From the NCBI RefSeq assembly GCF_003589595.1, contig NW_020654422.1, positions 9,204,442 to 9,268,441 of the forward strand: a stretch of DNA of 64,000 nt, written 5' to 3'. The position numbers and the translations under genes were made by a program. This document shows, in pieces, positions 1,617 to 4,800 of the stretch; within the stretch, counting starts at the first letter, position 1; every line of letters starts with the position of its first letter. The notes below the pieces were generated by a model, which saw only the letters and a list, made by a program, of their open reading frames with translations, had not been told where the DNA came from and did not search any database. This stretch comes from Hyposmocoma kahamanoa (Eukaryota; Arthropoda; Insecta; Lepidoptera; Cosmopterigidae).

Positions 1617-1853
1617 TTAAATATCACTTTCCAGTAATCCGGGCCTTTTAGGCGTACCCTCGCAATCAATCAATTTTATTTCCTCCGACTCTTCGGCGTC
1701 GTTCGAGACGCAGGCACCCATTAAATGAGGTTGTCCGTTATTATCAATCTTAGCATATTTTTCGCCGGCATCATCTAATTTGAGGACTTTAATCTCCACA
1801 CCGATTTCGTCTTTATCGACCGCCGTCCTACTCGGACGACGGTCAAGTTCCTG
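1617..1853 (-). CDS. rdgC: In-frame 78-codon extension after the rdgC TGA (candidate readthrough region)
   Basis: Directly after TGA 1856-1854 the same frame remains open for 78 codons and ends at a TAA (1619-1617). The peptide is hydrophilic and looks coding: QELDRRPSRT, VEIKVLKLDDAGEKYAKI, then an acidic DAEESEEIKLIDCEG and a final GLLESDI. Fly RdgC also continues some 55 residues beyond its last EF-hand and ends with a DCE-containing tail, so this may be the homologous C-terminus reached through the stop. UGA followed by C is the leakiest stop context known in insects. Alternatives are an assembly error, a recent nonsense mutation, or ordinary 3' UTR that is open by chance. Confidence 0.45.
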   Translation of the reverse strand, partial: QELDRRPSRTAVDKDEIGVEIKVLKLDDAGEKYAKIDNNGQPHLMGACVSNDAEESEEIKLIDCEGTPKRPGLLESDI

Positions 1854-4800
1854 TCAGGTGGCTGTTATTTCAGAAAAGTCATCATCTTGGAAACTTTTCT
1901 CGGCGAGTCGGAAACTCTCTAGAAACTCATTCAGATCTACAAGACCGTCCTTGTTTATGTCCATCAAACGGCAAATATCCACTAGTTGCTCCTGAGTCAT
2001 CGGGTTGGGCATATACTTTCCGATCAACTGACAAGCTTCCGAAAATTCTTCCAAAGTAATATAACCTGCAAAATAAAATAAAAATTATTAGATCGATGGC
2101 AAATTGTTTCAAAACTTTGTCCTTTTGTTAGTTACTACGTAGTTATACCGGAGTTGTCTTTATCAAGAATTTTAAAAATTGTTTCCAAGCTTCTTTTGTT
2201 TTTGTAAAGAGTTTCGGCAACAGTTTGTGTTTCAGCTTTACGTCCCATCCTCTGAAAAAAAATGGATTGTTAGCTCCATGTTGATCGTGAAAAATTACGC
2301 CAACGTCCGTCACTGGAAAAAAGTTTCTTACGTTAGAAGACAACTCGAATGTGTCCATGTATCGAACTTTGCGTGTTTCTGGATCAGTGTGAACAAGTTT
2401 GTCCTTCAACATTCTCCACGGCAACCCGAGATGAGTTGTCTCTTCCATGGCCTGACACCATTCACTGACAGTAATGTAACCTGAACAAAAAAATAAATAT
2501 GAATACCATAATCACAACATAACCAAACTTTTAATAAGTATCTCATTAGGCTACTAATTTGGTTTTAAGTAAATTTTAAAGGATGAGTTTTGAAAATTAT
2601 GGGTACGAAAACCACTAAATCCACTTAACCAAATTATCAACTGTCACTTGATTAATGGGGCGTGACGTATCCTAAGTACTAAAGATCACCATGACAAATG
2701 AGTCATAATTTGCTTTAGAAAATCTCCAAGGACTTCGCTTTGAAACGGTTCCCGAGTAAAAGCCCCAATGGATACGACTGCTCACAAGAATTAATGAGTC
2801 GAAATGTGTAAATCTTTTCAAAGCCGTAATCTTGAATATGTACTTTAATGGAATTAATATAAGTGCTCAACTTTACGGTAAGCTCGTCTCCGATTTCCCA
2901 TTTCTGAGTTGTATGTTAACTTAGCGAGTTCAAATATTAAGCCGAGAATTGAATAGAATGCCAGGAAATTAAATTGTATAATATCGACGTGGTGGAGACG
3001 TTCAGAGAACCGCACCGACAATACGCTTCAATATAGACCCTGTAATTGACTTGCTAGTGCGAATTCGAAACTATGACGTCATTTTAGAGCATAATAATAT
3101 TATACAATAACATTTATCTGTAAGTTAATTTGGTGAAAGAAAGGGATAATAGAATTTGTCGAAGATGGTATCATCAAAATTATCACAAAACCGAATATAA
3201 ATTTTGTATATACGAACCACTTTGATCAACATCCATGCTGCGAAAAGTGGCTTCTAGGTATCTACGCGCCATTAAGATCTGATTATGGAGCTCCCTCATA
3301 GCAGAGGACTCCACCAAACCGACCCTCTGGCGAAAGGTTAGCCGCCGAGTACGAGACACCGCCGCGGTATATTGCACGAACTGGCGGTCTAATGAATTCC
3401 CACACAGCTTCAGATAAGCTCCTTTGTTGGAACCAATTTCGTAGTAGTTGGATGCGGAGAATATAGTCACCACCTACGTGAGGAACAAATAAAAAAGAAA
3501 ATAGGCTCTGAGATACGTGACAGGTAGACATTAATAAAAAAAATGGTTGCTATCGTATCTGCGTGTGAAGTAAAATAGGACAGCCCCTTATCTGTCTACT
3601 TAAATTTTGATTACAGTTATCCTCCCAAACAACCTCTTGGTTATAAGGGAAGAGCACTGCCTGCGTGAGCACACGAACCTTATAAGTTTAGGCCTTGACC
3701 CCAGATGAGCCTGTGGACAGGGTTGTCACAGACCGTTATCATGGACTTCATCCGGCTCTCAAATGGCTAGTGCCTCGGGTTAACTGCCCCGTGTGCATAT
3801 ACAGCACCCTCCCTATTGTGCAGATAGGTACCGGAACTGTTGGCACGCTCACAGTTCCCGTTATGGATTGTACAACTAACGGTTGCCACCGCTAAGCCGT
3901 TGACTCTAAAGTCTACTACCAAATCTCCACTTTGGTGGTGGAGCTAAAATATGACTATTAAATTTACGTTTCCATTATGAAGTAGTTCATATCCACCAGG
4001 CTTGCACTCGTGGCTGCGCACCAAAAAGCTGAGCTTGGTCTTCCTCAGGAAGGAGGCTGTAACATCAGGGCCAAAGTAGGTGCCAGCTCCTCGAAGAGCA
4101 TTCGCCACGCAGCCGCTCGTACTCTGAGGGTCTGACCATAGGATGTCGAATACCTAAAACACCGTAATAAAAATTAAGATAATGTAAACCTTAAAAAACA
4201 AAACGCGCATACAAAGGTACCTAGATAGTAGATACAATTAAACCTGAATTGTAATATGATAGGTGTCAAAAATTCAAAAGTCGATACTTTTCACATTTTT
4301 TACATTGCAGAACAGTTATAAAATGTATTAATCAGCACATTTTCCTGACAAGGGATGAACCATTGAACAATGTAGATCATCAGTCGTCCATCCGATGTCG
4401 AATCTTATCAATCAAACGGGATAACGGAAAATTAAGTTTCAAATATGCAAAATGGGTTGGAATGAAAGACATTTGTTTCCAATTTTCATGCTTTAAGAAT
4501 TTAAAAGTTAAATAACGTTCTAAAAAAATGTTTATTGAACTTTTGAACGAGGACGGTGTCATATATTTACTTAATTTTTCATTCATATCAAATGTTCATT
4601 AATAATTTAAATGTGCAGTCTACATCAACTCTTGTCTTATAGAAGAACGTCTGCTAAGCACGGGTTTCTTCTAAGGCTAACGAGATTTAAGGCATGGTCC
4701 CATTGCGGCCCACTTCACGTATTTTTTAATTTTTTTTCGACATCAACTTCAACAACAAGCAGGTTCTTCTTTCGACCTTTATAGTAACAACACGCGATAA

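Follow-up and report, generated by a model that had tools for sequence, protein, structure and literature searches.

A conserved tail behind a TGA-C stop codon and a hairpin point to probable programmed readthrough in the lepidopteran phosphatase gene rdgC

We analysed a stretch of 64,000 nucleotides from the moth Hyposmocoma kahamanoa (contig NW_020654422.1, positions 9,204,442 to 9,268,441; hereafter called the window), whose minus strand carries rdgC, the gene of a rhodopsin phosphatase. The rdgC frame reaches a TGA followed by C, and directly behind this stop, in the same frame, 78 further codons stay open up to a TAA. A stable hairpin follows the stop in this species, and both the tail encoded by the second open frame and the stop position are conserved in other Lepidoptera. 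From these features we infer that the TGA-C is very probably a site of programmed UGA-C readthrough, assisted by the hairpin and conserved in Lepidoptera; this is by far the likeliest explanation of the sequences. The initial annotation of this DNA had already proposed readthrough on the basis of the TGA-C and the long open frame. Both reasons hold, and the proposal is supported by tail homologues that cross the stop position unbroken in 20 of the 22 matches of a tail search. The initial annotation had missed the two strongest marks, which are the hairpin and the LLESD[I/M] end of the tail, and its argument against splicing needed replacing. The elements at the stop are as follows.

1854..1856, minus strand: first stop codon, TGA, then C (read in the sequence; W in all 20 homologues covering the column, Q or H next)
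1620..1853, minus strand: putative readthrough extension of 78 codons (22 tail homologues; single copy in the species' own assembly)
1617..1619, minus strand: second stop codon, TAA (read in the sequence)

The TGA-C at 1856-1854, the 78 in-frame codons and the TAA were confirmed within an rdgC frame of 13 exons. The tail is acidic, as had been remarked before, with 19 acidic against 11 basic residues by a hand count, and it is present once in the 728-Mb assembly of the species. Its length alone is mild evidence only, because, of the 2196 TGA codons that the window holds in its six frames, 30 are followed by at least 78 open codons, and 146 of 20,000 sequences from a Markov model with the composition of the tail remain open. 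Homology and structure exceed chance by far.

Homologues were sought among proteins with a tail-only profile built from the H. kahamanoa and Manduca tails. The search found 22 predicted contig proteins (21 'lgn' and 1 'ena') of 39-132 residues; the shortest has E 0.31, and the other 21 have E values of at most 1.6e-11. Twenty span the stop position into the tail, while P0133 and P0138 begin behind it. In all 20 spanning homologues the stop column holds W, preceded by T and followed by Q (19) or H (1); therefore C is always the next base after the stop. Metagenome gene finders sometimes translate TGA as W, which is the likely reason for the W column, and we infer that W stands here for a TGA decoded under another code and not for TGG. 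A protein search with the full-length query, scored on residues 625-702, returned P0013 alone. In the DNA of relatives, patterns from the 23-row alignment gave no confirmed match, neither among the 334 found in genome contigs nor among the 127 found in viral contigs.

The second frame is under amino-acid constraint in these other species, as judged from the protein-level identities of the 22 homologues. Over 21 rows (the 20 spanning homologues and the window), the mean pairwise identity is 1.00 for 20 residues of the EF-hand and 0.51 for the 14 residues that lead up to the stop. Behind the stop it is 0.81 for the first 24 residues, falls to 0.32 in mid-tail and reaches 0.88 over the final ten residues. 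Since the value is 0.81 after the stop compared with 0.51 before, constraint climbs at the stop itself, and the strongest conservation of the tail's first half begins at the first codon past the TGA. The stop position is also shared by the deposited short forms of nine named lepidopteran species (P0002-P0012), all 11 of which terminate in this segment, as seen at the protein level, with the codon itself unseen there. For example, the C-terminal 25 residues of Papilio xuthus P0009 and Plutella xylostella P0010 recur without a change before the W of P0126 and P0136, respectively, and these deposited proteins terminate exactly at the W position.

These figures bear on whether the tail could be a relic, namely a C-terminus severed not long ago, or a frame translated separately from a start of its own, either of which we find scarcely credible. 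Open frames of 78 codons behind a TGA are no great rarity in the window, as counted above, and one Met column is common to 17 of 21 rows of the tail. That Met, however, sits 45 codons in, past the conserved block, and is missing in the other 4 rows; the stop is not recent, because it is common to the nine named species; and a relic would not hold its last ten residues at the mean identity found in the 21 rows. A dicistronic reading was rejected because no Met of the tail is conserved throughout, and so was an antisense coding region, since the antisense frames contain 3, 1 and 4 stops.

The second mark of readthrough is the hairpin.

1818..1844, minus strand: hairpin with arms 1844-1834 and 1828-1818 and loop 1833-1829; extra pairs 1846-1845 with 1817-1816

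Its 11 pairs begin 9 bases past the TGA, and the two outer pairs raise the number to 13, starting 7 bases past the TGA, with a loop of 5 nucleotides (nt) and no bulge, and no part of it is farther than 60 nt from the stop. Folding of the 60 nt that start with the TGA gives -24.2 kcal/mol (z -3.73), and none of 200 dinucleotide shuffles is equally stable; for a tighter 44-nt cut of the hairpin region, z is -4.57 and 1 of 200 shuffles is equally stable. Control folds gave z -0.70 for the 60 nt before the TGA and z 0.97 for a 60-nt stretch farther downstream. Among the 2065 segments of 45 nt in the 2109-nt coding model, those of lowest energy are the ones that contain the hairpin. When the codons were recoded synonymously with the amino acids kept, 1 of 20,000 sequences drawn from the gene's own codon usage and 5 of 20,000 drawn uniformly folded as stably, and therefore the hairpin is not a by-product of the peptide. 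The peptides of 17 of the 20 relatives are able to encode all 11 core pairs in register, a pairing potential that is consistent with the hairpin and proves nothing without the codons; among random residue pairs, 21% are capable of full pairing. In P0136, facing residues have changed jointly (D to S, V to A) and synonymous codons could still pair fully, which makes this a candidate compensatory change.

An Rfam search of window positions 1-2300 up to E 5 gave two weak matches below the cut-offs (mir-7552 and U4). The mir-7552 match, at window 1420-1470 on the plus strand, has 26.6 bits compared with a cut-off of 59 (E 0.17) and is probably due to chance. Selenocysteine at the TGA is very unlikely: no selenocysteine insertion sequence (SECIS) was among these matches, and Lepidoptera with sequenced genomes are reported to be without selenoproteins in the available text of PMC2500217 (a part of the paper, as for the other records cited below unless the main text is named).

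A stable RNA duplex close to the TGA may also attract an A-to-I deaminase, which would turn the UGA into UGG (Trp), so that the long form would come from edited mRNA and the W would be read by an ordinary tRNA. We consider such editing highly improbable. The adenine to be edited is not part of the predicted duplex, a short one of 13 pairs, and editing leaves the invariant C after the stop unexplained.

Several points weigh against readthrough. At the W column of the homologues, TGA rather than TGG is deduced from proteins. The sample of homologues is biased to species with a TGA and an open frame; because the search would miss any species whose stop is TAA or TAG, or whose frame is broken, the data do not establish an invariant TGA. 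The hairpin was read in the DNA of H. kahamanoa alone, its relatives being known as peptides, and among these P0126 and P0131 could keep at most 10 of the 11 core pairs and P0132 is without one codon within the hairpin. A 60-nt fold at least as stable follows 11 of the 2196 TGA triplets of the window, the rdgC TGA included; three of the 11 (this TGA and two neighbours) share this same hairpin. Finally, P0013, a database model that contains the tail, is free of the stop, being joined elsewhere. The last point concerns splicing and requires the exons of the gene.

1617..29445, minus strand: rdgC coding region of 13 exons, one open frame, 12 of 12 introns GT..AG; IQ, Metallophos and EF-hand families; homology to rdgC proteins
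29445-29317, 20068-19978, 18861-18716, 16643-16479, 12835-12669, 12093-12057, 11287-11138, minus strand: rdgC exons 1-7
10565-10485, 4153-3968, 3473-3218, 2480-2332, 2251-2149, 2065-1617, minus strand: rdgC exons 8-13

The model is incomplete at its 5' end, where related proteins have about 75 more N-terminal residues, and its first codon is approximate in the first base or two. In it, 623 codons precede the TGA, and the full modelled coding sequence is that of 2109 nt used above. The RdgC/PPEF architecture is present, with PF00612 (IQ), PF00149 (calcineurin-like phosphatase) and PF00036/PF13499 (C-terminal EF-hands) all above cut-off. Judged by eye, the intron sequence at window ~22400-24960 (minus strand) has the appearance of a decayed reverse transcriptase of the long interspersed element type, and a tRNA-like stretch, likewise intronic, at ~16860-16930 (minus strand) is possibly a short interspersed element.

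In two database models the tail is present and the stop is missing. P0013, the annotated H. kahamanoa rdgC protein (isoform X2), whose last 160 residues are exactly reproducible by joins of window DNA, joins an earlier exon to the tail, and the Manduca model P0001 omits the stop together with the residues on either side; in each of them the tail is still part of an rdgC protein. Such models would agree with alternative splicing, in which an acceptor past the TGA is joined to an exon farther upstream or to a donor within the last exon; ribosomes would then never meet the TGA, and the tail would be an alternative C-terminus. We regard this as improbable, although the frame alone does not decide against it. 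The initial annotation had dismissed simple exon skipping on the ground that a join to an acceptor at 1845 would put a stop in frame. The acceptor-like AG is actually at 1852-1851, so that the first base of an exon using it would be 1850. A join of the preceding exon to this AG does break the frame, whereas eight other modelled exons would keep the frame there, and for the preceding exon itself the AGs at 1810, 1786 or 1774 would give in-frame joins. Because several other in-frame joins exist, the exclusion of exon skipping is not deducible from the frame alone.

The sites and the conservation are more informative. The candidate acceptor at 1827 scores -0.3, on a par with the weakest real acceptor (-0.4), while the other seven candidates score -2.6 to -9.2 compared with -0.4 to 12.7 for the 12 real acceptors, each left out in turn; these scores come from a small ad hoc matrix built on the 12 real sites and are not maximum-entropy (MaxEnt) scores. 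The peptide right past the stop, which such splicing would remove wholly or partly, is the best-conserved part of the tail's first half, so that constraint is highest between the stop and the candidate acceptor sites. In Plutella, moreover, the first codon is for H, so there is no CAG there. The join of P0013 has nine possible placements, none of them with GT-AG, GC-AG or AT-AC ends, and lies at a short repeat at or in the 3' arm of the hairpin; it looks like a reverse-transcription jump or a modelling artefact at the hairpin. The places joined are window 3365-3357 and 1825-1817, which share the short repeat. The stop-avoiding model P0001, known as a protein only, looks artefactual too. We hold splicing or editing to be unlikely.

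For programmed readthrough we propose the following course. Most ribosomes would terminate at the TGA-C and release the usual phosphatase. A fraction would be delayed by the hairpin 7-9 bases past the stop, a near-cognate tRNA would decode the UGA, and translation would continue for 78 codons to give a phosphatase with a flexible acidic tail ending in LLESD[I/M]. Through this end the long form would likely be tethered to a PDZ scaffold.

1620..1637, minus strand: codons of the last six residues, LLESDI, a candidate class I PDZ ligand (LLESDI in 18 and LLESDM in 5 of 23 rows, the 22 homologues and the window)

A class I PDZ ligand is a C-terminal [S/T]-x-hydrophobic. An S-D-I or S-D-M end, which fits this pattern, is conserved in all 23 rows and is missing from all 11 deposited short moth forms. 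The tail had no Pfam match up to E 0.1, and an AlphaFold2 prediction for the last exon with its stop read through had low confidence over the whole length, EF-hand included (mean predicted local distance difference test, pLDDT, 56.6; predicted template modelling score, pTM, 0.25), and was not used as evidence. The gene inaD, whose product is a PDZ scaffold of phototransduction, has been found in Lepidoptera (PMC6698658). Since the available text of the same paper does not list rdgC with the genes that are clearly upregulated in the head, the role of rdgC in the moth eye stays a candidate one. That the long form docks to a PDZ scaffold is, judged from the motif, a fair hypothesis and not a finding.

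When 111 RdgC-type proteins were compared (five protein-kinase-like matches excluded), a class I-type end was found in 23, and 15 of these finish S-Q-I or S-L-I in the ordinary frame (P0020, P0021, P0024, P0027, P0029, P0034, P0037, P0043-P0045, P0050, P0051, P0055, P0063 and P0076). Fourteen of the 15 are from insects that we take to be beetles. For the related SPVLS tail, 7 of 22 proteins are without a class I-type end. It is tentatively suggested that, in Lepidoptera, readthrough set by the hairpin switches a PDZ-docking end onto the rhodopsin phosphatase and so tunes the scaffold-bound share at termination, while many beetles encode a similar-looking, unrelated S-x-I end permanently; the two orders would then reach the same tethering differently. 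A likeness to the C-terminal tail of fly RdgC, with a DCE element near its end, had been claimed as well and was not confirmed: the one tephritid RdgC compared (P0100) aligns to the moth profile only via the EF-hand, with no homology found beyond it, and Drosophila RdgC was outside the comparison.

The kind of event is already known, and this gene and this order appear to be new as far as the literature was searched. A search on stop codon readthrough combined with rdgC or Lepidoptera, assessed partly by title and the start of the abstract, found no work on rdgC readthrough. The main texts of PMC5100048, PMC3840789 and PMC4999894 do not mention rdgC, the supplementary fly candidate lists being outside the search, so a fly counterpart may stand there; the main text of PMC5100048 does not name Lepidoptera. 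The authors of a 2024 moth genome paper state in its available text that they know of no documentation of readthrough frequency in Lepidoptera (PMC10917498). In the present case one short segment combines the marks of programmed readthrough, namely a leaky stop, a hairpin, a conserved tail and a candidate docking motif. If the proposal is true, the present annotation of rdgC in moths and butterflies misses a conserved isoform, and the location of a phototransduction phosphatase would come under the control of a translational switch.

Among the readthrough genes of flies and mosquitoes, TGA stops, a following C and conserved structures within 100 nt are over-represented; such structures occur in 9-10% of the candidates (PMC5100048). 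When compared with this Drosophila and Anopheles set, rdgC likewise has a second frame behind the stop, amino-acid constraint, TGA-C and a nearby structure, and no selenocysteine element was found; it differs in being lepidopteran and in that constraint was judged from proteins and not by PhyloCSF. A structural parallel is Drosophila dfr (vvl), in which readthrough is increased by a stem-loop that begins at about +10. The effect depends on how stable this stem-loop is and how far from the stop it lies, and not on its sequence, and six other predicted stem-loops were also functional in the dfr reporter (PMC13170385). The rdgC hairpin is similar in being a stable stem-loop about ten bases from the first base of the stop, with a loop in the range of 3-10 nt and no bulges. 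On the other hand, the rdgC stop is UGA while that of dfr is UAG, the rdgC hairpin is 31 nt long including the two outer pairs and falls short of the minimum of 35 nt set in the genome screen of the dfr study, and the rdgC case is known from sequence alone. The readthrough isoform of Drosophila glass also belongs to an eye gene, with a UGA-C stop and an extension of about 75 residues; unlike rdgC, glass encodes a transcription factor, and its extension is reported to be non-conserved in other insects and dispensable in the laboratory (PMC6655844). In Drosophila RdgC itself, one gene also gives rise to phosphatase forms that differ in location (PMC9740569). There the difference is made at the N-terminus, by start sites, splicing and fatty acylation, whereas in moths it would be made by a C-terminal extension.
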